Positions 6,825 through 41,716 of a stretch of DNA of 64,000 bases are shown piece by piece. The position numbers and the translations under genes were made by a program. How positions within the stretch are numbered: the first letter of the stretch is position 1; each line of letters begins with the position of its first letter. Source of the DNA: Myrmaecium sp. VS I D KN 1 (Eukaryota > Ascomycota > Dothideomycetes > Valsariales > Valsariaceae); contig JADQAV010000002.1 in the NCBI GenBank assembly GCA_019775845.1, positions 2,356,001 to 2,420,000 of the forward strand, written 5' to 3'. The notes beneath the pieces were generated by a model, which was not told where the DNA came from, did not search any database, and saw only the letters and a program-made list of their open reading frames with translations.

Positions 6825-7831
6825 TTACAACTTGGCCGCCTTCCAAACCGGCTTGCGCTTCTCCACGAACGCCCGGAGGCCCTCCTTCATGTTCTCGCCG
6901 GCGAAGAGCCTGGCGGCCCACTGCTCGTTCCAAAGCCGGGTCGCCTCTTCCGTCCCCATGCCTTCCAAGCCCATCTTGACGCCCTCCCGGCTGACGATGA
7001 CGGCGTCCGGGCTGTTGGCGGCGATGACGCTCGCAATCTTCACCGCCGCGCCGACCACGCCGCCCTTCTCGTCTGGGGGGACGACCCGGTTGACGAGCCC
7101 CCAGTCCCGGGCCTCTTCCGCCGTGAGCGGCTCGCCCGTCAGGGCCGTGTACATGGCTCGCTGCCGGCCGACCGTCCGCACCAGCCGCGGCAGTGCGCCC
7201 GCGAACGCGACGACCCCTCGCTTCACCTCCGGCAGCGCGAACCGCGCCCCCGCCGCTGCCAGGACGATGTCCGCGTTGACCGCCATTTCGCAGCCGCCCC
7301 CGTAGCAGATCCCGTTTACCGCCGCGATCACCGGCTTCACTCCCGACCGTCTTGACAAACCCCCGAACCCGGACGTCGGCAGCATCGGCGGGGCGGATCC
7401 GGCGGCGGAAGAGGAGGAGGCCCCGCTACCGCCTCCAGTGTTCGTATTCCATTCTGCAGAGGTGGAGCGCACAACTGTGTCAGACAACCAGAGCTATTCA
7501 CAAGCAAAGGAGGGGAGATAAGGAAGAAAGGGGGATAGGGGGATATAAGGGTGAGGGGACGGAGGGGCGGAAACCTACCACGCAGGTCCGCGCCCGCGCA
7601 GAATGCCCGTCCCTGACCGGTGATAATGCCCACCCGCAGCGACGGCTCCGCGTCCAGCCAGGACCAGACCCGGTCGAGCTCGGCGTGGCCGGCCATGTTG
7701 ATGCAGTTGAGCGCGTCCGGCCGGTTCAGGGTGACGAGGAGCACCTGGGGCGCGGGGAAGGAGAGCAAGGCATACTGGGTCGCCGGCGGCGGCGTCGCGA
7801 ACGTGGTCGGGGTCGAGTCTACCGGTGCCAT
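6825..7831 (-). CDS. Enoyl-CoA hydratase/isomerase (crotonase) family, peroxisomal
   Basis: Two exons (7831-7579, 7453-6825) give 293 residues. The crotonase fold is shown by the oxyanion segment AFCAGADLR (76-84) just before the intron and by NGICYGGGCE (131-140). The two catalytic glutamates of true enoyl-CoA hydratases are present as Glu140 and Glu160, spaced 20 apart as in the rat enzyme. The protein ends in A-K-L, a type 1 peroxisomal targeting signal, so it probably hydrates 2-enoyl-CoA in peroxisomal beta-oxidation. A Gly/Ser-rich stretch (91-104) lies after the intron junction, where the family has a variable loop. The gene lies just downstream of a long-chain acyl-CoA synthetase on the same strand, which supports a role in fatty-acid breakdown. 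The exact substrate length is unknown. Confidence 0.9.
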
Positions 7832-8241
7832 TTTCAACGGATTTGATTCGGAGTCGATCTGACAATCGGTGTGGGAGAAGGATTGGAGACGGTCATCCTC
7901 CTGAGATGCTTGGGGTGCGCTTGGACTGCTTGATGGGGAAGCTCCAACTTCCGAGGTATGATCTCCCGACCTGCGAACCACCGCTGATCCATACTTTTGG
8001 ACCGTGCTCGGCCGCGACAACACATTCACCAGTACGCAAACGCAACAACGTGAAATTGAAAACATGTGCATATTTATAACTACAGGAAAAAAGAGTAGAG
8101 TGTCCATGAAGATTAGACTGAGAGTATACCGCTAGAAAGAAGTAAACATGAACTAAAGACCTGTCCTTTCCACATGGCTCCCGCACGCGATCCTCAATAT
8201 ATCAACTCCCGACAGGCAAATTATATCGGAACTTGGCCATC

Positions 8242-10595
8242 TCAAGACGCATGCGCATAAGCCTTATCAACTTCTGCCTTGTACTTCTCAAGAATTCCTT
8301 TGCGGTTCAGTTTCGACGCCGCAGTAATGAGTTGCTGTCATAGATCTGTCAGTAAACGTTGCCGAAGGACACAATTTGAGTACTTACGTTTTGCGGAGTC
8401 CACTCCTCATCAGCAAGAACGACGCCATCAATGATCTCAAACCCGGCCAGACCAGCCTTGCGCCCGACGTCCTGTAGCTGCTTCAGAACAAGGGAGTTGA
8501 TTTTCTCGTTGTGTACCAGCTCCTCCAGGTGGTCACCAGGCACACCATTCTCAGCCGCCACTTTCTTGAGGGCGGGCTCAGCTGGAACAATAATAGCGAT
8601 CGGCTTCGTCTTGTTCGCAGCCGCATACACGCAGATGTTGGCAACAATGGTGGCGGAGCGATAGATTGATTCAAGCTGGACATGACCCCAGTTAGCAGAT
8701 CTTCTACGCACCGCGTGCTATAGACTTACCTTTTCCAAAGCAATATATTCACCGTTCAGAGTCTTTACCAGGTTCTTCTTCCTGTCGATAATCTTCAGCT
8801 CACCCCTCGGACTCCACTCTCCGATGTCTCCAGTCTTGAACCAGCCATCATCAGTGAATGATTCCTTGGTCTCTTTCTCCAGCTCAAGGTACCCATCCGT
8901 AACGCTGCCACCGCGGATCCAGATCTCTCCTTGAGGGGGATTGTTCTTTGTGAAGTAGCCTGCGTCCGCGAAATCAACCAGTTTGACCTCAATACAAGCC
9001 GGGAGCTCTCCGAGGACTTCGTCGGACCATGATAACGGGTCCATCAACGCACCCATCCTGCACTCAAGTTAGCTAATGCTGGTAAATAGATAAATCAGAC
9101 ATACGCAGCGGTTTCAGTCAAACCATATCCACTGATAAGCGGCGCAATCGTCATCGAAATGAATCGTTGGGTATCCTTAGCAATGGGACCACCTCCGTTG
9201 AAGCAGATCCGCACTCTACCGCCAGTAGCGTCTTTGATCTTGTTGAAGACGACGGCATCTAACACAGATACCCCGGGAAGTCCTGATGACAGAAGGAAGT
9301 TCTTAGCGGCAAGTGCACCCCAGAACAGATGGTTCTTGAGCGCACCGCCCTGGTGAACCTTCCCAACGATACCCTTCTTGACACTTTCCCAAACAGCGGG
9401 GACACCGATAAGGACCGTAGGTTTGAACTCGCGGATATCACCCTTGCAATTGCGCACCGACGTGTCGGAAAGCGTGCGCACGCTTCCGTAGCCCATGGTA
9501 CCCCCCCAAAATAGAACAGCATTCTCGAAAACAAATTCGAGAATATGAGCCAGCGGAAGGTAAGTCAAAAGACCATCGCCAGGTCCCAGATATTGCCCGA
9601 AGACAGAGTCGACACCGGCAACTGTCACAGTTATTATTATCGGATTCTTCCAGGCGCAAGGGTAGGACGCTTACCTGCGGCGACGACATTCCTATGTTTC
9701 AGGAGCACTCCCTTCGGAGTACCGGTCGAGCCCGAAGTATACATGATACAGCAGAGATCCTCAGCATTGGGCAACACGGGATCGACGGGGTTCTCTTGTC
9801 CTAGTTTGAGCAAGTCGCTATAGCTGAGAATCTGCAGATGCGAGTGCGCCGCTTTCAACTTGTCTATATCTTCTTGCTTGACCTCCTGATCGTCGTTGTA
9901 GATTACATGCTGGATCGCCTTGGCATCATTCAGCGGCTTGATAAGCTTGGTCAAGAGATGAGGGTCCAGGAAGATCGCTTTCGCGTTCGTCTGAAGCATG
10001 GAGTGCCTGAGCCCTTCTTCCCCAAGTGTATCATAAGCCGTAACTATCGGGATGGACTGGGAGAGGGCACCATGTGACATAGAAAGCCAGAAGGCGCTGT
10101 GGCAGTGTCAGTCTGATGGATCACAGGTATCAACGTCTAAGGCGCGTACCTTGTGCTTGCGTAGAGATGCAGCTTGTCTCCAGGCTCCAACCCCAGCTTC
10201 CTCAGTGCCGAGCCTAGAGACAACACTCTTTGCTCGAACTCAACAAAGCTCCAGTATTTGTAGTCGCTGAGCTCGAAATACTGCCAGTTCTTGTCCACCT
10301 CTTGCTGCTTTCCATCGACCATCTTTTTCACCTTCTTGGTCTCGGTGTGCATCTTAATCACCTTGCGCATGCCCATGGCTTTCGCGTTGCCAAATTTGGC
10401 CGAGGCGTACTTCAGGATATCGTACATGGTGTTGACACCTTCAGCCGGACGCACGTAGAGTTCGTCCTTGTAGCGCGCATGTCGCCGAGGGATCGTCTCG
10501 CCTTCCTTCTTCTCATAACCCGGTGCTTCGACGGTGAAGGGCCCTTGCCTGTAGTACTTGGGCAAAGGCGTCATGCTCTTGTAGTCGGGTGCCAT
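8242..10595 (-). CDS. Long-chain acyl-CoA synthetase (Faa1/Faa4-like)
   Basis: Six exons (10595-10150, 10096-9675, 9621-9105, 9057-8730, 8675-8388, 8334-8242) give 697 residues, the usual size for fungal Faa1/Faa4 proteins. The AMP-binding P-loop reads YTSGSTGTPKGV; the A5 region is GYGLTETAA followed across an intron by MGALMDPL; the A7-A8 motifs are DGWFKTGDIGEW and IDRKKNLVK; the tail has QLITAASKLNRKGILEKY. All five introns are 47-54 nt and all junctions keep the frame. The enzyme activates long-chain fatty acids to acyl-CoA with ATP. The C terminus AHAS is not a peroxisomal signal, so a lipid-droplet, ER or cytosolic site is likelier than the peroxisome. The start ATG is followed by APDYKSM; no in-frame upstream ATG gives a better N terminus. 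Confidence 0.95.
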
Positions 10596-10943
10596 GATGA
10601 GGTCGCTGCTGCTGTAGTGGCAGCAAGGAGGACTTCGTATAACTTGGAAAGCTCCGAGAGGTATGAAAAGATAGAAGGGAGGCGAGCCCAGAAGGATGTG
10701 GGAGTGCGGAAGGAAGGTGACGGCGATGACGGGAGGAGCGCCAACTTGGCACGGGGCAGAAGCTCCCACGATCGGTACAGTACTAGTAGGGGTTGAGGAG
10801 AGGCCCGTGCTGGGCGGCGGCCAGTTGGGCGTGCAGAAGCGACAGCTTGGCGGGCATGGCGGGTTTCAAGGGTTACGTAAGGGGCACGGCACTCCGAGGC
10901 TTCAACCTCCCGCATGTTGAATGTTTACCAGTCCATAAATACT

Positions 10944-11607: not shown

Positions 11608-11716
11608 AAAACTATTTTGGAGCTTAAACTGTATGTTAGATGCCGGGGTATCGACACTTCCCCATGTCTAAAGCATCCTGACGCTTGTATCTCAACTCTC
11701 ATCTCCTGTGAGTTCC

Positions 11717-14058
11717 ATGTCTTCGCCTCGTCTCAAACGCCGGAGGCTTTCTGGGGATGAAAGATCAAGTCCCGGGACCGCCAACCAGACACCAACAGCA
11801 AATGTAGGCACTTTGAAACGGCCGACTCGCCGTCCTGCTTCGCACTCTACACTGACTGGCTCTCCCACGTCAGCCAGGAAGCGTGGTACGGCTGTTCAAC
11901 CTAGCAGACCGGAAGAGAATGGACAGGATGCCGCTGGGGATGCCGAACAGAGTGTGTATGACGATTTCTCGGGAGCGCTAGAAGGCAAGAGAGTGAGCGG
12001 GAAATCCAAAGACGAACCCACTACCGCTAAGAGTCGGGCCGCGCAGCCAACGCCTAAGGGAAGGAGCAGTCTTCGAAGGCAATCTAAGGCTCACTTAGTT
12101 GAGCAACAAGAGGAGGCACAGGAGCTGAGCGCGGCATCTCCTACTATCACCGCGCGGAAACCAAGAACGAAAAACCGTGCGTCTCTGAGCGGAACCAAGC
12201 ACGCCGAAGAAAGGACTCCAGATGGCAGACCTCGCAGATCTATAGACGCTGAAATCAGCCCCGGAGAAGACAGTATAACTCCGAGTCGACGATCAGCAAC
12301 CAGGTCATCCGTAAGAAATTGTCCGCTAGGAGAGTCTGGAAATGCTTCAGACACCATCACAAGTGGCCGGGTGGAAGAAGCGCCAAGTCCTACAGCGAAC
12401 AATCTAGCATCGTTACATCCCAGTGGTCGCTCTGCGGCAATGCGAAGCAACGCCCTTGCTCAAGCTCCACAAACTGGCCATGCAAAGAAGGCGTCTTTGT
12501 TGCCCGAGGAGACGTCACCCTTCTATCAACCTAAGTCAAGAGAACGGAAGACAATTGCCGTTGATGTCCCGCAGCAGGTGAAAGCACGCCCGGAGATTCA
12601 TGATTCATTGGTCTTGCTCAAGAGAATCGTGCTCGAAAAGCTTACAGGGAAACGAAACGTGCCGTTGATTGGTTTGGATGATGAATACCACAAGGTATAT
12701 CAACTAGTCGAACACACCATTACCGCCGGTGAGGGCAATTCGATGCTCGTGATAGGCGCAAGGGGCAGCGGGAAGAGCGCCTTGGTGGATAAAGTTGTGT
12801 CAGAGTTGGCAAAGGAGCACCGCGAGCATTTTCATATCATCCGATTGAATGGATTCATCCACACAGATGATAAGCTGGCCCTGCGAGAGATATGGAGGCA
12901 ACTTGGCAAGGAGATGGAAATTGAGGACGACAGTCTGGGAAAAAACTATGCCGACACCCTTTCCACACTGCTGGCCTTGCTCTCCCATCCTGCCGAGATT
13001 TCAGGGCAAGAGACCGATCAGGTTGCGAAGGCCGTCATATTCGTGATGGATGAGTTTGACCTTTTTGCGTCTCACCCTCGGCAGACATTACTCTACAATC
13101 TCTTCGACATTGCACAGTCCAGGAAAGCTCCTATAGCGGTGCTTGGTCTGACTACACGTATTGACGTCTCTGACAGCCTTGAGAAGCGAGTGAAGAGTCG
13201 CTTCAGTCATCGATATGTACATCTGTCGTTGGCCAAAAGTCACTCTGTATTCAAAGATATCTGCAAAGCTGCCTTACAGGTGCATTTCGAAGAGTTGAGT
13301 GTGGATGAAAGGACCGAGCTCTCCAGATTCGTTGACGCGACACCGAAAAAACCCAAAACTGGGGCACACAGGCCTGACATCCTCACATCATGGAATTCTG
13401 CCGTCGATGTAAATACTTACCCGCTTGGCACACTCCTGCGTTACACGCTAACAGCGAATAGGCTCTTCTGGCGGATGGCTCCTTGGTCTCCTCGCATCTT
13501 GGCCCACCGTATCACCTTACCAAGTCCATCCCGGATATGCTTATGTCCTTCGTTCTTCCCATGTCGTTGATTCCCCCAGATCAGTTCCCTTCCTTAAACC
13601 CTGCCAATTACGGTATTAAAGTGGGTGAACTATTCGGGCACTCCATATTGGAACCCCCTGACTCGAAATTGCATCTACTCCCTCAACTATCCGAGCTACA
13701 ACTAGCGCTGCTCATCTCCGCTGCTCGTCTCGACATCATCCTCGATACCGACACCTGCAACTTCAACATGGCTTATAACGAATACTCTACGCTCGCCGCC
13801 AAGGCGCGGATTGCGAACGCGGCATCAGGAGCGGTGGCCACGGGTGGCGCCACCGCTAAAGTCTGGGGCAAAGAGGTGGCGAGGCGAGAGTGGGAGCGAT
13901 TGATCAAGTGGGAACTGCTGATTCCGGTCATTGGGCTCAAGACTGGCGGAGCGGGGCAGGGAGAGATGGTGCGTTGTGACGTTGCTTTGGAGGAGATCAT
14001 ACCGTCGTGCGGCAGTGGGATGGATCGGACGCTAGAAAGATGGTGCCGGCACATCTGA
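11717..14058 (+). CDS. orc4: Origin recognition complex subunit 4
   Basis: Two exons (11717-13408, 13462-14058) give 762 residues. The first ~300 residues are basic, Ser/Pro/Arg-rich and probably disordered. The AAA+ ATPase follows: Walker A GARGSGKS at 347-354 and Walker B VIFVMDEFDLF with Asp445-Glu446, then the sensor region and winged-helix part. The 53-nt intron joins SWNSAVD to ALLADGSL. The downstream part (YSTLAAKARIAN..., REWERLIKWELLIPV) matches the Orc4 C terminus. Orc4 is a subunit of the six-protein complex that binds replication origins and loads MCM helicase. The first ATG after an in-frame GTG was chosen. It converges on ERG28 (gap 312 nt). Confidence 0.95.
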
Positions 14059-16829: not shown

Positions 16830-18202
16830 ATGGCGCAATCTATAACGCGCCCGCGCGTTTTTATGGATATCAGCATCGGCGGCGAGCCCGTTGGGCGCAT
16901 CGTTATCGAGCTCTTCGTGGACAAAGTACCCAAAACATGCGAGAAGTGCGTGGTCCTTCAAAGCTGAAACCTGGAAGTCAGTGTCGTTCCGATGCTGCAA
17001 CTCTTGCTGGACCAAATATGTGCTGACTCTATGACAACAGCTTCCGCGCGCTTTGTACTGGCGAGAATTCGGATGGCTTATCTTACAAACTCTGTCCTTT
17101 TCACCGCATCATCCCTGAATTTATGGTACAAGGCGGCGACATCACCAAGCAGGATGGAACGGGAGGGACTTCAATCTATGGATCGACATTTGCAGACGAA
17201 GCCCTTGGCTGGCGCGACATCGATACGGCGGGGCTGGTGTGCATGGCCAACCGCGGCCCAGACACGAACAGCAGCCAGTTCTTCATCACGCTGGATGGAG
17301 AAAACTGTCAGCACCTGAGCAAGAAACATTCCGTGTTTGGGACGGTGGTGAACGGGGAGAAAGGAATGAGCGTGCTTCGACGAATGGAGCAGGTGCGGAC
17401 GGACACGGAGACGGATGTGCCAACCGTGCCTGTGCTGGTGGAAAGATGCGGAGAGCTGGAACGGAAGATCAAGGCAGGTTCGGAGCGCAGTCAGCAGAAG
17501 GTGGAGCATAAAGAGGCAGAGCAGGTCGGAGATGACCAAGATCGGGGACGTGCCTCTCACAAACGCCGGCAAGAGTGTAGTCCGAGCAGGTCGCCTTCTC
17601 CGCATGGAGAACGAAGACGGAGAAGCGGCAGCAGACATGGCCATCGTCGCAGAATCTCTCGGTCGCCCAGTCCACTCGACACACATCCCCATGCGGCTGG
17701 CGAATCATCGGAGCGGAGTCACCGGTCGCGACCGCATAAGCATCGACGACGGAGCGATGCCAGCCCGGACCACACGCTGAGGGGACGCGCACGCTCCCGA
17801 AGTGCCATCCCTGAAGAGGATGGAGCGGAAGCCCGAGCGAGGAAGAGGAGCACACCGCCGTCCCGGGGTAGCGAGGACGCGTCGGAAGGGCGGAGGCAGC
17901 GGAGCCTGCCAAACCAGTACCGAAGAGGCGACGAGAGCCGGTATCGAGAGCACGAGCGATATCACGATCGGGGCGACCGGGTTGACGGACGCCGAAACGC
18001 AGACCGGTACGATGGGAGGAGCCGTTGGGGTGATCGAGACGAGGACCGGGGGTACCGGAATTCTCGGCATCGCCACGACGATGGGAGGCTCGGCGACGAT
18101 GGACGCCTGGGCGGCCGGCTCGGCGATGACGCGCCGGTGAGCAAGGATGGCGTCGTCTACAAAGGCCGCGGAGCCATGAAGTACAAGGAAAAGCGGTGGT
18201 AG
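16830..18202 (+). CDS. Cyclophilin-type peptidyl-prolyl isomerase with Arg/Ser-rich tail
   Basis: Two exons (16830-16945, 17041-18202) give 425 residues. The cyclophilin domain covers about 9-190. Active-site residues Arg61, Phe66 and Gln69 ([13 protein letters not shown]) and Phe120 (SSQFFI) are present; the position of CypA Trp121 appears to be His130, as in nuclear CypG-type cyclophilins, which predicts weak cyclosporin binding. From about 205 to the end the protein is rich in Arg, Ser, His and Asp, with RS/SR and RD/DR dipeptides, typical of proteins in nuclear speckles or spliceosomes. The end [15 protein letters not shown] is a conserved-looking terminal block. I infer a pre-mRNA splicing role. 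The tail frame is uninterrupted for ~650 nt, so no further intron is needed. Confidence 0.93.
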
Positions 18203-19044: not shown

Positions 19045-20265
19045 TCAAACATCCTCATCAGCGCTCTCAGACTCCTCGTCTTCGTCTTCACTGTCGCTCG
19101 TGTAGTCCTCGTCCTCGTCCTCCTCGTCCTCATCCTCCTCGTCCTCGTCCTCATCCTCATCCCCGTCCTCGTCCTCATCTTCCTCGTCCTCCTCGTCCTC
19201 GTCCTCCTCCTCTTCCTCGTCCTCCTCTTCATCCTCCTCGTCCTCTTCCTCGTCATCCTCGCCCCCAACGTTCAGTCGAACTTTCAGCCTGCACCGTCCC
19301 ATGCTGCCCCTGCCGTCAAACCCGTCGAAGTCCAAAGTCCAGTCGAGCGGCAGCATGGCCTTGGGGGCGCCGGAGGGGGCCCGTTCGGCGTCCTCGCTGA
19401 GCCAGCTGTATCCCGGCTTGAGGATGATGTAGGCCCGGATGGTGAAGTAGCCCCAGCCGACCCGGCGGACCTCGTATGGCGGACGCCGGCAGATGATGCG
19501 ATTCGGCGCGAAGGTCGAATGCTAAGGTAAGGTAGCGCAAGGTTCGGTGTTAACTGAACTGTACCGAAAAAAGGGCAGGTGGGGTGAATAAGGGCCTTTC
19601 TCTGCTTGTCTTTGGGATACAGGGATGGAAGTCACAGCTGCTGTGAATGGCAATGTGCAAACACGCCGTGGAGGCGTGGAACTCGGGACAATCGACCATG
19701 GCGCTTCTGTACTCACCAGCTTTATGTGCACCTCATCGATGATGTCGACCCGACTGGGCCGGACGAAGAAGACCCACTTGTGCATGTTGCTGCTGCCCTC
19801 CGCCGGCATAACGAAGCGATGCCGATTACCAATATCAAGCGTGATGGTCTCGACGGTGCGCCGGCCGCCGCGGGCACCGCCGCCGGCGCCATCCCCACCA
19901 CCACCACCGTCAGCTCCGCCGCGCTCCTCCGCCCGCCGCTCCGCGTACGTCCTCGGGTAGCGCGCGGCGAGGTGGCGGGCGAGCGCGCGATCCGGGTCCG
20001 CGGCGGTCTGCTGCCGACACATGGGACACCGGGCCTCGAGCGGGTGCTCGGCCCCCTCGGTCTCGGCCGCGGCGGGCCCTGCAGGTGCGTCGACGGCGAG
20101 GATGGTCATCTGCCACGTCGTCCTCCCGGCGCTGGCGCAGGCGCTCGCGTCCGCCCACTGCGCCATGCAGGCGCCGCACAGCCGGTGCCGGCACCGCGTC
20201 ACGACCGGGCGGAAGAGCAGCTGGTGGCAGATGGGGCAGAGATCGTCGTCGGCGATGGTTTCCAT
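19045..20265 (-). CDS. RING finger + YEATS domain protein with acidic tail
   Basis: Two exons (20265-19717, 19521-19045; intron 195 nt) give 341 residues. An N-terminal C3HC4 RING has Cys10, Cys13, Cys25, His27, Cys30, Cys33, Cys80 and Cys83, with an unusually long 46-residue gap before the last pair. A Gly/Ala/Asp-rich linker follows. A YEATS domain runs from about 140 to 270: RHRFVMP, HKWVFFVRP, EVHIKL then across the intron HSTFAPNRIICRRPPYEV and GWGYF, ending with LDF...GSMGRCRLKVRLNV. Aromatic-cage positions of acyl-lysine readers appear kept (His184, Thr186, Phe187, Trp206). The last ~75 residues are almost all Asp/Glu, encoded by a CTC/GTC/TCC-type repeat on the plus strand. RING domains usually bind E2 enzymes, so a chromatin-linked ubiquitin ligase is a reasonable inference. 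The start was set at the ATG 9 codons before Cys10. Confidence 0.88.
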
Positions 20266-33848: not shown

Positions 33849-36195
33849 TTGGGGGTTGGGATGCGGATGGAGCGCAGAGGGCCTTTTTCGAGGCGAAAGC
33901 GAGGGCGGCTATCCTTCCTGCCCTATGAGATCGCGAGACGGCCCTCCATAGGCAAAGGATACCTCTATATATTGGGTGGGTGATGATTGATTTATATATT
34001 TATGACAGTAGCTTGGAAACGAACAACATGAAAGGAAAAGGAACACGCTGGGCTGATATCCATGGAAAAAAGGGCAACGGGAAATGGGGAACATGCCCCT
34101 TTGAGGTTTTCTTTTTATTTTTTATTTTTTGTCACCCTTTCGTCTGTTTTTCATTTTTGGTAACGTTCTGTTGTGTGTTTCTCTCCTCCGCAGGCATGGG
34201 ACATGTTAAAGACATACTAGTTCACGAACATACATATCTACATATATATGATATATTCATTTATATAATTCAAGGAGTGATACCGAATACACGTAGATGT
34301 ATAACAGGTGATGCATATCACTTTTCTTTTCTATTCTTCTTCCCCGTTCCTTTCCTCCTTTCTTCCTGTTGGACCTCCTCACTCCCTTCCAACAATGGCG
34401 TGAGATGAACTCCCGTTCCGTCACTCGCGATAAGTACCAGGGATAACGGAAGGAGCCGGACGATGACGTCGGGTTACCTAGTTCGGAGGCAATGGAACTA
34501 GCTCGTACCTCGGTGCCTCGGGGTTTCGTCACCGAGCCTCTACGGAGTAGCCTTGGAATTGGTATGGTATGTAAGATATAGTAAGGTAAGAATGCGTTAA
34601 TTTACCACTAGTACCAATAAAATGGACCGGAACAGGAGATGAAGAGACGGGTCAGAGACTCCCAGGGGCCTCGGGATGGGCGATGACGTACCGTACCCTA
34701 GTAGCCTGTTCGTGCGTTTCCCCTCTACCTTACTAGTAGCGTTTGGCGTTCGTTGGTGGGGAAGTGGGGACGGAGAATGACCTCGGGGCTCCCTATGAAT
34801 TGACGATACGATAGTTGAGTTACGCCGAAAGAGCAGACGAATTTCTCCGAGGGGGTTCCGAGGTTTTTTCGTTTGCCCTGGGCGGGATCGTGATCGTGAT
34901 CGATGATGAAGGGAGAGGAGGGATCGCGATGGTGTACTCACTCCGTAGGTACATAATAGACATTACTCGTGTGTACTGAATTGCGGGTCCTTGTGGGAGC
35001 AGATACATTCAACCGCTTGCTGAAGACATCCAGCAAAGGGATTCATACAACTCGTCATGTCGGATAAGGAAGAAAGATAGGTAGTACGTTACTGGCGTGA
35101 CACTTGAAAGAAAGCTGCCCTAAGATCCATCAGGCAAGGTCGACTGACCGCACGCGGCTGTGAGCTGGGAAAGGGTGCGGGGTCCCCTGCTTTTTTTCCC
35201 TGCTTTTCCAGTTTCCCCGGACCTTGTGCGGGGTTCGGGGGTTCAAAGGGGGAAACGACGACAGCGGCGTACTACTAGTAAATAAAGGTAAGTAACTTAA
35301 GTACTGATATTTAAGGGCGATGCTGAGAGGCTCAGCCGTTTGGTTGCGGCGGGTTGCCTGAATGGGCTGGTTTGGCTATATCCCGTCCGGCTGCTGGTAA
35401 GATAATAAAGGTGTAACACGTAAGGTACTATTAGGTGTGTATGTGTTTGCGTGGGTGTGGATGAGCGGAGACCAACCTTGCTAGCTTGGTTTACCCCGCG
35501 TGAGCCGGGGGGAAACGAGACGAGACGAGACGAGACGAGACGATGATGCTGCCATCCCATCCCATTCCTTTGTCCCAAGGGTCCCTCCCCCGGGCGCTTC
35601 GGCGGTTTCCTATTCGATCCAATGAGAGATCGTGAGCGGCATTACTTTAACAGGCAGAGTGCCTGCTGTTCCCCCTCTTCCTCTTCCTCTTCCTCTTCCT
35701 ATCATCCTCCTTCCCCTTCTCCTTCTCTCTATCTTGTGCTCACTTCTTCCTCCTCCCCCCCCCCTCTCTCTCTTCACCAAACCATATCCCCCTCCATCCC
35801 ATCATCCGTCCGTTGCAACGTGATAGACCTCTTGAGCTTTCCCGCTTCGAATCAGACATCTATCCCATCCCCACTGTGACCTAGCCTTGTCTGTCCCGAA
35901 GAGTACAGCCTTGTCACACGTCAATTTGAGCGAGCAACGGTGCTACATACATGTTGCAACCAAGCTCCGACGAACGCACTCGACATTATCCCCTCCTACC
36001 ACCCTGGTCTCCTCTCCCGCCGCCGTGAGGCTAAAGCGTACAGCACTGGGAACAGAGCCCCAGCTAAGAGTGAGTAGGTCGGGTTCGTCCTCGAAGCAAG
36101 ACATACCATACCAACGCTCCTCCCGTCCCGTCTGAGGCCAAGACTGACGAGCATCACGTACAGAACACACTAACATTGCACCGAGCACATCCATC
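33849..36195. other. Intergenic region with simple repeats
   Basis: This 2.3-kb stretch contains T-rich sequence near 34100-34370, TAGTA/GGTA-type A/T-rich words near 34560-34620 and 35270-35310, a CGAGA microsatellite at 35516-35540 and a C/T-rich leader at 35670-35780. Open frames lack signatures. No gene is supported. Confidence 0.5.
35516..35540 (+). repeat. CGAGA microsatellite, five units
   Basis: Five perfect copies of CGAGA are followed by CGATGATG. The repeat is intergenic. Confidence 0.85.
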
Positions 36196-38740
36196 ATGCT
36201 GACCCATCATCTCCGGAGCGTGAACGGCAAAGCCATCTGCAAACGCCAGGGAGCTTCGGATCTGCTGGAGGCAGCAGTAACCCCGCTGTCCCGGCCAAGG
36301 CTGCAGATCGCCAGGATCAGCTCGCAGCAGGTTCGCCACCTCGGCTGGTGGGCTCGTGAATCGAGACGAACGGGCCAAAGCGGTTACCCGGCCGATGGCT
36401 ACAGGTACAAGGTGGAGCAGAAGGCGGCCTGGGACAGAAAGGTTAAGCAATGGCGGAGAGACGTGGAGGATGCCGTGCGGAACATCGATAGCCTGTCTAA
36501 ACAACACCCCCGCCGCATCGTCCGTCTGATGCAGGAGTCCTTGCTCTCGGGAAACTCGCTACATGCCTGGAACGACTGGCATCGTCACGACAAGACGTGG
36601 GAGTCTTCGAGCACCAACAGCACTTCGCGGACCTGCCAGCATCGATCAGGAGCTTTTTCGCCCCCGATTCAACGTGACAGCCAAAAACCGGCCAAAGCAC
36701 CCGTCACCGTCATTGGATCCGCGCCGAAACTCCAATATGATCCGATCACTGGGCGTATGGTTCAGCCGTCGGCCGAAGCGGATCGTGTTGCGGAATCTAG
36801 AGCAGATGCCCCTGCCACTGCAGCTCGGAGGATTCCTCTCGAAGCCTCATCCACGGAGCAGCAGTCCTCGTCGTCGCCTAAGGAATCTTCTAAGCCGGAT
36901 CAGCAGGATCATTCAAGCAATCTCAACGTCGCTGCGACTGATTCGGCGGAATCTCGGTCTCAGCAAGACCACTCATCATCTGGAGTGAGCGAAGCTGTAA
37001 AGGACGATCCGCTTGCTGCCGAACTTCGACAGTACGAGGATCGTGTGAAGCCGGAAAAGGCAAAGCCAGTTGAGGAATGGATTGTACCGAGTGCCGCCAA
37101 ACCTCCTTCGTCTGTCCAGTACGACGACCGCCTTTCTTCAGCCTTGGGAGATTATGAACGCTCTCACCCGGACAAGCCCGCGCCGCCACCCTCTGAGTGG
37201 CTAGTGCAAGAGCAGACTGTCGAGCAAGACTTAGAATCTTTGACAGCGGAGGATATCCGTGCGCGGATGCGTAGTCGTGTGGAGCACAGCGCACGAGAAG
37301 TACCCGCGAAGCTTGAACCAGCCCTTGACCGCTATCAAGCCAAATCCAGGGCAGAAATCGATGGTGTTCAAAGGTCATCCCAGACTTCGAATTCGGTAGG
37401 ATCCTACGATAGTTACGGATATACGCGGGAGCCGATCGGATTGCAAACATCTTTTGCCCGAGAGATTGCTTCCGGCCGAAGCCTAGAAGAAGAACTCAAG
37501 GAGCGCACTGAACACTTGTCTGGCCAGCCGATCGGGTTGCAGACTTCATCAGCCCGAGCATTTGATTCTGGGGATGAGCTCAAAGCTTGTGCGACGGAGC
37601 CCATACGAAATGAGAACTCATCAGAGCTTCCAGGGCCTAAGGAGGCGAAGTCGAATGGCCAAGCTTCTGCTGCAGAAGCCAGTTCTGCCAGCGTTCCTGA
37701 GGTGTGCCAGGAGTCAACAGGCGCCCCGGAAGAGGTTGAACGCGAGGCTCTTGGTGGCCTTGTCTGTTCTGCCCCCGCTAGCCAAGAAGTTGAGGAGTAC
37801 AATGTGAAGAAGCCTGTGTTAGAGGACGAGCATGGATACTCGATGGTTCCGATGGGGCTGGAGACCTCCTTTGCGCGGGAGGTTGCCGAGTGTAGGGAGG
37901 GCAAGAGGAAATCACTGGAGGATGAACTGAAAGAGGCATTCGCCGCGATCCAGAAGCAGTCTGTGATCATCGAAGCTACCTATAAGTCAGCAACCGCCAC
38001 CCTCTCCGAAGTAAAAGCCGCTGTAGCTGACATCACCCAAACATCCGCCAAAGTCTCGGATTCAGCAGTCAAAATCTATGATCTCGCCAGTCGCATCAGC
38101 GCCGAGCGAGTGTCGGCGCCGCCGGTTGAACGGGAGATGGTCTGTCCCGCGCGCCCCGCCTACCTCGTCCTCCACGAAGGCGAACCGGGCCGCATCACGA
38201 AGCGCCTCGAGGATGCGGACCCCCAGCTCCACGCACCTCCTGAAGGAGAGATTCTCGTACAGGACGCCCTCGAGACGCTCGCTCATCCCCTGGTGTTTTT
38301 GGAGCACATGCCCCCGGATGGGACTATCATCAAGGCCACGGGCGATACGCTTGTGTACAAAGATGCGCAGCTGATGTCGTGGCGGTGGCTTCCTCGCACC
38401 GAGCTGAGCTCGATCCTGGCTCGACGGGCAAAAAAGCTGGAGGATCAACAGCAGTATGAAAAGCGACGGGAGTTGAGAGCAGCGCAGCGGGAGCTGGAGC
38501 TACTTCGGGCTAGGTACGTGCGACTGTTCCCTTCCATCGCAGACACTAGGATGATGAGGCTGACTTAACAACAGAAAGAAGATAGAGGCTGCGCGCCCGA
38601 CCTCCGCGAAGGGCGGCAAGGTCAAGTACGACAAGCCCCTGATCTTCGGCGCGGCGTTTGTTGCGGGGACGGGGCTGGCGACCGCGGCGTACGTTCTCGG
38701 CGCATTGACGGAGGCCACTACCAAGAGTATCGGTGGCTGA
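36196..38740 (+). CDS. Probable mitochondrial membrane protein with repeated GL-x-TS-x-AR motifs
   Basis: Two exons (36196-38513, 38575-38740) give 827 residues. I do not recognise the family. The first ~60 residues are Arg/Ser-rich with almost no acidic residues and look like a mitochondrial presequence. A motif P-[IM]-G-L-[QE]-T-S-[FS]-A-R occurs at 413-422, 445-454 and 552-561. A second module, roughly DYE/QYE...KP...EW, occurs twice near 280-340. A helical region near 575-640 and a coiled coil near 735-780 precede a single hydrophobic segment (IFGAAFVAGTGLATAAYVLG) in the second exon, close to the C terminus. This layout suggests a tail-anchored inner-membrane or matrix-facing protein. 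The intron (61 nt) was placed because it adds the membrane segment in frame. Confidence 0.8.
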
Positions 38741-39337: not shown

Positions 39338-41113
39338 TCAGTCCGGCAGCAGCCAGGCCTCGGCCGCCCGACGCGCCTCCGCGTCCAGGTCGGCGGCCAG
39401 ATGGATCGGACGTCGCGTGTCCTCGTCATCGTCCGCGGCTTCGTCGTGCTGGTTGTGATGGTCGTCGGCGACGTCGACAATCCCCACGGCGCCCCCGGCA
39501 TGGTCCCACACCGACGTCTCCTCTGGTGGCTCCGCACCCGTCGTGCGTAACGGCGGCGGAGATTCGGATCGCGCGTTTGCGTCTGCGTCTGCGTCGCCGT
39601 CGCTGGCGCTGGAGACGGCTCGTCGTCGCTCGATCATTTCTTGCTGCTGTTCCTCAGGCGGCGTGGGCGCGGGAGGAGGGATGGCGGTGCTGGGGCTTGT
39701 GGTTGTGGTTGTGCCCGCGCCCACGCCCGCTATGCCGGAGATGCTGGGGATGCTAGGGATGCTCCCGGTGAGAAGGTGGATCATGGTGCTGAGACGATTG
39801 CTGTTGCTGTTGCTGTTGGTGGGGTGTTGGGGCGAGGAGGGTGAAGGTTGTTGGTGATCCGCTGCTGTTGCTGCTGCTGCTGTTGCCACGTTGGGCGAGG
39901 GGTTGCTGCTGCTGCTGCTGCTGCTGCTGGTAGCGGCGGCGAGGGGCTTGCGGGTCGGCACGGACGCGCTGGTGGCGGCGAAGGAGGTGGAGGCCGCGGT
40001 TGTGGCGGAGGATTTGCGGGCGCCGTGGGGATACGTTGTCGATGGGCCACGGGTGTGGCTTGCGGGGGTAAGGGGAGGGGTGGCGGGGAATGGATGGGAG
40101 GCCCGGTCGGGGGTGGCGGGGATGGCGGCGGAGGAGCGGGCGATGGATGTGTTGGGGGTGTGGTGGCGGGGCGGTTTCGCGTCGGGGTCCGGGTGCAGGT
40201 GCGGGGCCGCGGACGCGGGTGGAGTGTACGGGGGTGGTGTGACGACGGTGACGGTGACGTCCCGCCTGATGCCGCAGTTGGAACACTCCAGGCGTTCAGT
40301 GGAGGTGTGGGTCTGCGTCTCGAGCAGGTTGGAGGGGTTGTCGACGTGCACCTCGAGGCGCTCGGCCGGGTTGCGGGAGGAGGCCGTGATGGCCTTGGAC
40401 CGCTCCCCTCCTCCGCCTCCTCCGCCTCCTCCTCCTCTGCCGGACCTCCGCGCCGGGTCGAACGTGCGGGCGGAAATGGGCTCGATGGCGGTGACGGCGC
40501 CGAAGACGAGATGCTCGGTGTGCGGGATGAGCATGAGCTCCCGGACCGTCTTCACGCGTTCGACGATCTCCCGTCGCAGCTTGAAGTCGTCCACGCCGCG
40601 GAGGTAGAGGAAATACTTGCACAGCATGTCCTGGTACCAGCCCCGCACCTTGAGCGCTTGCTGGCTCTTCTCCCGCGACAGGTTGGCCATGGATGGCCAC
40701 AGGGCGTCGAGGAGCTGTTTCTCCTTCAACGCCTTCCGGACGAGGAGGTCGACGCGCCCGGCCTCTAGCAGCTTCTTGTCCAGCCGCTCGTGCTGCTCGC
40801 TCATGGTGTTCCGGTAGGCCCGGGCGATGCCGACGATCAGGCCTCGGAGAAACACGGCGTCCAGGTTGTGCGTCCGGACGAGCTGGTCGAGGCACTCGAT
40901 GTCCCGCTGCGCCTGCGCCTTGGCCGGGCGGACCGTCTTGGGCTCCAGCTCGTTGCCCAGGTCGATCCAGCGGCCGGCGCTGCGCGGCTTGGCCGAGGCG
41001 GTGCTGAAGATGCTGCGCAGTGGCGCGTACTCGGCCTTGAAGTAGTTGTACGCGAAGTCGCACAGGTCGTCCACGGTCAGAGGCGCCATGGCCATGCCTT
41101 TGGGGATCTCCAT
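39338..41113 (-). CDS. Fungal protein of unknown function with low-complexity C-terminal half
   Basis: A single exon encodes 591 residues. Residues 1-210 are a helical, non-repetitive region (VDDLCDFAYNYFKAEYAPLRS, LDQLVRTHNLDAVFLRGL, GWYQDMLCKYFLYLRGVDDF) that looks conserved. A Gly run follows near 230-240, then a C-x2-C pair (LECSNCG) near 280. The rest is rich in Pro, Ser, Thr and Ala with eight Ser in a row encoded by an AGC repeat. No catalytic motif is visible and I do not recognise the family. The ATG at 41113 was used; ATG at 41089 is the alternative. The large plus-strand frames here (for example 39848-40768) are shadows of this GC-rich gene. Confidence 0.75.
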   Translation of the reverse strand: MEIPKGMAMAPLTVDDLCDFAYNYFKAEYAPLRSIFSTASAKPRSAGRWIDLGNELEPKTVRPAKAQAQRDIECLDQLVRTHNLDAVFLRGLIVGIARAYRNTMSEQHERLDKKLLEAGRVDLLVRKALKEKQLLDALWPSMANLSREKSQQALKVRGWYQDMLCKYFLYLRGVDDFKLRREIVERVKTVRELMLIPHTEHLVFGAVTAIEPISARTFDPARRSGRGGGGGGGGGGERSKAITASSRNPAERLEVHVDNPSNLLETQTHTSTERLECSNCGIRRDVTVTVVTPPPYTPPASAAPHLHPDPDAKPPRHHTPNTSIARSSAAIPATPDRASHPFPATPPLTPASHTRGPSTTYPHGARKSSATTAASTSFAATSASVPTRKPLAAATSSSSSSSSNPSPNVATAAAATAADHQQPSPSSPQHPTNSNSNSNRLSTMIHLLTGSIPSIPSISGIAGVGAGTTTTTSPSTAIPPPAPTPPEEQQQEMIERRRAVSSASDGDADADANARSESPPPLRTTGAEPPEETSVWDHAGGAVGIVDVADDHHNQHDEAADDDEDTRRPIHLAADLDAEARRAAEAWLLPD

Positions 41114-41716
41114 GATTGGGCCAGCCGGGAGGAGTCCACTGTGCAGGGAAGAGAGGAGAGGGAGCTTGTCAAATGTGACAAGTGGCGAAGAGGAAAATGG
41201 AGAAAAACGAAGAGCCTATGGGTTGACAGGAAGAAGTATGTGGATCTTGGAACGAGGTCAGTGGTGGTTGCCTGATCGTGAGGTATAGTAAGTGAATAAC
41301 CTGAGCTATAACGACCCAATCGGAGATGCTGAGGTATCTGTCCAAACGGATAATCAGGCTAGATGATGACCTTTCTACAAGTGAGCAGTGCAGCATGAAT
41401 TCGAGGACGTGAGGGCTCGCGGGACAATCAAATCATCCTCGAGGCAGAAGGTTGCGCCAGATTAGCAGCGAGGCGGTGGAGGCTTGTTGCTCCTTCGGCG
41501 TCATCGAGCGTGGCTGGGCACTGCCACCTGACCACACTTCCGTCCGATCTGGCGGCGTGATATATATACCTACTGGTCTCGTGGTGTTTATGTGTCTCGG
41601 AGACGCAAAAATCAAAAGGCTTCCGCTTCGAACCTGAGGTTCCTATGCAAAATATGCCGGAGGAGAGCGCCCACAGGCTCTGGGAGATCTCAAAAACAAA
41701 AAGAGATCTTGAACCG
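41114..41716. other. Intergenic region before the tRNA gene
   Basis: It contains the promoter of the unknown protein and the 3' flank of the tRNA. No gene is supported. Confidence 0.5.
41692..41704 (-). terminator. RNA polymerase III terminator of tRNA-Ile
   Basis: On the minus strand two runs of five T (TTTTTGTTTTT) follow the tRNA 3' end by about 13 nt. They are flanked by a short inverted repeat GAGATCT/AGATCTC. Runs of T stop polymerase III. Confidence 0.75.

Follow-up and report, generated by a model that had tools for sequence, protein, structure and literature searches.

A single gene of two exons, on the minus strand, encodes one chain of 341 residues in which a RING finger of the C3HC4 type comes first, then a YEATS domain, then a very acidic tail. 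We propose, with moderate confidence, that the product would work in the nucleus or at chromatin as a RING E3 ubiquitin ligase, with the recruitment of its substrate set by a YEATS acyl-lysine reader. Throughout this article "the window" means the whole stretch of DNA that was analysed, 64,000 nucleotides long, and all positions refer to it. The original prediction had given the gene as 19045-20265, with an intron at 19522-19716 and a product of 341 residues; these values are borne out, and the minus strand is our addition to them. The parts of the gene, in the direction of reading, are as follows:

20265-19045, minus strand: RING-YEATS gene, two exons, giving 341 residues
19717..20265, minus strand: exon 1 (549 nt, residues 1-183), with the RING, the Gly-rich linker and the N-terminal part of the YEATS domain
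20017..20238, minus strand: C3HC4 RING finger, C10 to C83, with 46 residues separating C33 from C80
19858..19920, minus strand: Gly-rich linker, residues 116-136, 13 of the 21 being Gly
19522..19716, minus strand: intron (195 nt, GT-AG, GTGAGT...TTAG)
19045-19521, minus strand: exon 2 (477 nt), with the second part of the YEATS domain, the acidic tail and the stop codon
19261..19521, minus strand: first part of exon 2, residues 184-270, the remainder of the YEATS domain, including cage residues H184, T186, F187, W206 and G207
19045..19260, minus strand: acidic C-terminal tail (residues 271-341) and stop codon

The RING finger and its predicted activity

The RING has its eight zinc ligands in C3HC4 order (C10, C13, C25, H27, C30, C33, C80, and C83), as had been claimed for Cys10 to Cys83. 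When the full protein is searched against Pfam, zf-C3HC4 matches residues 10-40 (E 2.5e-5, 24.5 bits vs a cut-off of 21) and, with a margin of 3.5 bits, is the only RING model above its cut-off among those listed. The other RING models probably fall below theirs because 46 residues part C33 and C80. The window was also scanned in all six frames with a general RING spacing pattern; it matched once, at this gene, and there was no match in 60 first-order Markov simulations.

The influence of the long insert can be seen when residues 44-76 are omitted. With residues 1-85 left intact, two of the 17 families listed reach their cut-offs, namely zf-C3HC4 (PF00097) at 28.2 bits and zf-C3HC4_3 (PF13920) at 27.5 bits vs 27. 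Upon omission, PF00097 is matched from position 1 to 40 of 40 and goes to 29.9 bits (+1.7), PF13920 goes to 30.8 bits (+3.3), and PF12861 rises strongly, from 13.2 to 27.4 bits. PF13920, PF12861, PF13923, and PF13445 then pass their cut-offs alongside PF00097; in all, five of the nine RING-type models listed pass and eight of the nine are covered almost from end to end. TRAF3_RING drops from 22.5 to 19.3 bits, and most of the gains are modest when set against the intact 85-residue piece. These scores point to the second ligand pair (C80 and C83) as completing the RING, although in some models the effect is not strong.

Other residues of the RING also deserve attention. I12 lies inside the first ligand pair and W37 beyond C33, and the region of the second pair holds P81 and, immediately past C83, R84; in active RINGs, residues at these four places touch E2 and ubiquitin. 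The linchpin arginine of RINGs stabilises closed E2~Ub, according to the available part of one paper (PMC12326332), and R84 would be the putative linchpin here. With its E2-contact residues and this arginine, the RING appears to retain the features expected in an active E3.

Of the 48 sequences matched when residues 1-117 were searched against the PDB, 38 are TRIM, TRAF, BRCA1, UHRF1, or RNF168 chains, the matches spanning residues 2-60 at most. Many of these chains are E3 ligases. The sole match in NCBIfam is rad18 (E 0.12), and its 11.6 bits lie far under the cut-off of 175.05.

A different role for the RING should be weighed at this point. Known YEATS proteins work as readers within larger assemblies, and the present protein could likewise contribute its YEATS domain as an acyl-lysine reader to a larger chromatin complex (in the manner of Yaf9, Taf14, and GAS41), with the RING serving as a surface for binding or dimerisation and not as a ligase. 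Such a role would suit the long insert and the only moderate profile scores, and the YEATS proteins among the PDB matches are non-enzymatic readers or subunits. However, the E2-contact positions and the linchpin arginine are kept, and a purely structural RING would have no need of them. We consider this alternative unlikely, if well worth keeping in mind, and prefer to read the RING as that of a candidate ligase.

The YEATS domain and its acyl-lysine cage

The YEATS domain claimed for the second half of the protein was recovered by Pfam (PF03366) at residues 160-218, with an E value of 1.5e-12 and 47.7 bits vs a cut-off of 22. A PDB search with residues 135-270 (E ≤0.1) gave 46 distinct sequences, all but one of which are YEATS proteins (YEATS2, YEATS4/GAS41, AF9, ENL, Yaf9, Taf14, and Taf14b); the remaining one is a 60S ribosomal protein. 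YEATS2 is the top match (E 4.9e-9) and GAS41 the next. No profile reaches residues 219-270, where the last strands of the fold would lie. The prokaryotic-type family (pYEATS, PF20305) was considered as an assignment and rejected: on the whole protein it scores 26.7 bits vs a cut-off of 26.9, where YEATS scores 47.7, and on the domain alone it passes at 28.5 bits, but YEATS scores 50.1 there. Since AlphaFold2, applied to the reading that retains the intron, with the tail removed and no relatives supplied, gave a mean pLDDT of 34.1, our case for the eight-stranded immunoglobulin fold of the YEATS family is one from sequence.

The contacts of YEATS2 to an H3K27ac peptide include H259, S261, Y262, W282, G283, E284, F285, and Y313, and changing the sandwich residues to alanine abolished binding, as given in the available part of the YEATS2 paper (PMC5651844). 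The cage residues originally named (His184, Thr186, Phe187, and Trp206) are correctly numbered and align with four of these contacts, H259, S261, Y262, and W282, respectively. G207 aligns with G283 and F209 with F285, whereas Y208 stands opposite E284, a non-conservative change. Thus, among the contacts listed in the available text, six of the seven that can be aligned are identical or conservative, Y313 lying beyond the aligned part. The aromatic, Ser/Thr-lined cage for acyl-lysine appears to be kept, with all four core positions and the glycine that follows.

The kept cage also bears on a further alternative, in which the RING is that of an active ligase but the YEATS fold has lost the reading of histone acyl-lysine and recruits its substrate through another surface or modification. 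Identity to YEATS2 is 31 percent over the aligned part, which makes this a divergent domain; the loop ahead of the third strand has five fewer residues than that of YEATS2, and the replacement of E284 by tyrosine can be counted on the same side. Against it stand the core positions and glycine of the cage, every one of them retained, and we judge the loss of reading to be improbable. For the ligase that we prefer, the YEATS domain would still be a reader.

One gene across an intron

The first in-frame ATG is at 20265, and in the 309 nt checked upstream of it there is no ATG in any frame. The intron carries a branch-point-like site (TTAAC) 32 nt upstream of its end. It amounts to 65 codons, and its only stop in the frame of the exons is the TAG of the acceptor, which is its last codon; because the intron is in frame in this way, the splice join needed testing. 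All 1052 GT-AG introns of 45-400 nt in 20265-19045 were therefore scored, each against fragments of YEATS2 and GAS41. The intron at 19522-19716 ranks best, with 52.8 bits for YEATS2 and 44.3 bits for GAS41. The runner-up (49.3 and 38.9 bits, respectively) uses the same acceptor and a donor 27 nt further on, and the unspliced reading reaches 28.5 and 20.8 bits.

The Pfam YEATS score behaves in the same manner, being 29.8 bits for exon 2 without the tail, 33.7 bits when the intron is read through, and 47.7 bits for the spliced protein. By itself, exon 2 without the tail covers positions 30-64 of the 80 in the profile, and the spliced match covers 2-64. Because the match spans the junction, the two exons are tied together without recourse to RNA. 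The original claim of two exons in one gene is thus upheld by comparison, not by RNA, and on that basis the spliced model is supported as the best among the GT-AG models tried. Were the intron retained, the product would be a RING protein carrying only half of the YEATS domain.

Base composition was examined as GC at codon position 3. Exon 1 has a value of 0.86; by part, it is 0.93 for residues 1-115, 0.79 for the YEATS part of exon 1, 0.85 for exon 2 without the tail, and 0.75 for the tail, and the intron, read in the exon frame, has 0.45. The measure varies from gene to gene, since the same calculation on three neighbouring exons gave 0.90 for GalT and 0.65 for both the cyclophilin and the short-chain dehydrogenase. 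The profile fits coding sequence broken by an intron.

It is very improbable that an annotation artefact has joined two adjacent genes or transcripts, one with the RING and the other with the YEATS part: the frame of exon 1 does run open by itself through the intron up to its last codon, and the 55-residue first part of the YEATS domain in exon 1 has no Pfam match on its own, but the YEATS match crosses the intron, the given intron outranks every other candidate for both YEATS2 and GAS41, and the RING and the first YEATS part share one uninterrupted exon. The reading of a single RING-YEATS protein is the one carried forward here. When this protein was compared with the window by tblastn (E ≤1), the two matches obtained were both the gene itself.

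Proposed function, relatives, and surroundings

For the ligase reading, we envisage the following steps. The YEATS cage would hold a lysine bearing an acetyl or crotonyl group, either in a histone tail or in another acylated protein, and the acidic tail may add contacts to basic histone surfaces. The RING, carried on a flexible Gly-rich linker, would then engage E2~ubiquitin, and ubiquitin would pass to a lysine in the captured protein or in its neighbours, the outcome being perhaps signalling, perhaps degradation. The proposed ubiquitination at acylated histones is consistent with the retention of both the cage and the RING features. Somewhat more tentatively, the protein may be a natural acyl-lysine-directed ubiquitin ligase and the first YEATS reader in one chain with an E3.

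The acidic tail had been predicted as well, and 62 of its 71 residues are Asp or Glu (37 E and 25 D). Its DNA (19105-19261) is an imperfect tandem repeat with a period of 6, 15, or 24, and for that reason the length of the tail may vary between strains.

The protein resembles the known YEATS readers (YEATS2, GAS41/YEATS4, AF9, ENL, Yaf9, and Taf14) in the YEATS domain and the kept cage residues. It differs from them in that a RING precedes the YEATS domain and a very acidic tail comes after it. Among the best 60 of 140 PDB matches, which are mostly short domain constructs, none is by name a RING-YEATS protein.

There are also likenesses to proteins outside the YEATS group. UHRF1 and RNF168, which are among the weak PDB matches to the RING part, are chromatin-directed RING E3 ligases that combine a RING with chromatin-reading parts in one protein. 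They read other marks, and their SRA, Tudor, and PHD domains have no match here (Pfam, E ≤1). The reader of TRIM24 has a fold unrelated to YEATS. In TRIM24 a RING and a PHD-bromodomain reader of acyl-lysine occur in one protein, according to the available part of a further paper (PMC11334367), and it is this joining of a RING to an acyl-lysine reader in one chain that makes the present protein like TRIM24/TIF1. Membership of TRIM24/TIF1 was rejected, since B-box, PHD, and bromodomain are absent from the 14 Pfam families found at E ≤1.

Relatives of the 270 residues that remain without the tail were sought in plasmids, prokaryote contigs, and viral contigs, collections that do not include fungi, and none was found there; the candidate stretches were 63 pattern matches in prokaryote contigs and 11 in viral contigs, of which none was confirmed. 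The original prediction knew of no studied fungal protein with this order of domains. In agreement with this, a search of the full-text literature, mostly at the level of titles and the starts of abstracts and with few subscription papers, returned no description of the pairing. Two papers came up as candidates and were rejected: within the available text of PMC9145779 both terms occur only in the reference list, and the "Yeats" of PMC7159879 is, in the part available, the name of an author. The available portions of PMC12221007 and PMC8638923 describe no RING-YEATS protein. The pairing may well be present, yet unstudied, in many fungi.

Should the proposed function be correct, an E3 with a YEATS domain would respond to acetylation or crotonylation, and hence to the supply of acyl-CoA, by placing ubiquitin on chromatin or by causing the destruction of proteins. 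The fusion would couple histone acylation, and through it metabolism, to ubiquitin signalling within one polypeptide, and would give fungi a logic like that of TRIM24 made from a different reader. Widespread occurrence of the architecture in fungi would make it a chromatin regulator yet to be characterised, and rare occurrence a recent fusion of domains. The protein is small enough for testing in vitro.

Several neighbours in the window can be recorded. The exon of a cyclophilin-type isomerase (17027-18202, plus strand) has a long Arg/Ser-rich C-terminal part and resembles the nuclear SR-type cyclophilins. An exon for an AAA-type ATPase (11672-13570, plus strand; AAA_16, E 1e-10) is perhaps a subunit of the origin recognition complex. 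Fungal transcription factor and Zn2Cys6 domains also occur among the neighbours and mark the source of the DNA as fungal. Two long stop-to-stop frames, 36148-38568 (plus strand, 806 codons) and 39338-41215 (minus strand, 625 codons), have no Pfam match at E ≤0.001. At 7340-10865 on the minus strand, ~8-12 kb from the RING-YEATS gene, there are fragments of an enoyl-CoA hydratase (ECH_1) and of an AMP-binding enzyme; both families act on acyl groups, and any tie between them and an acyl-lysine reader is no more than speculation.
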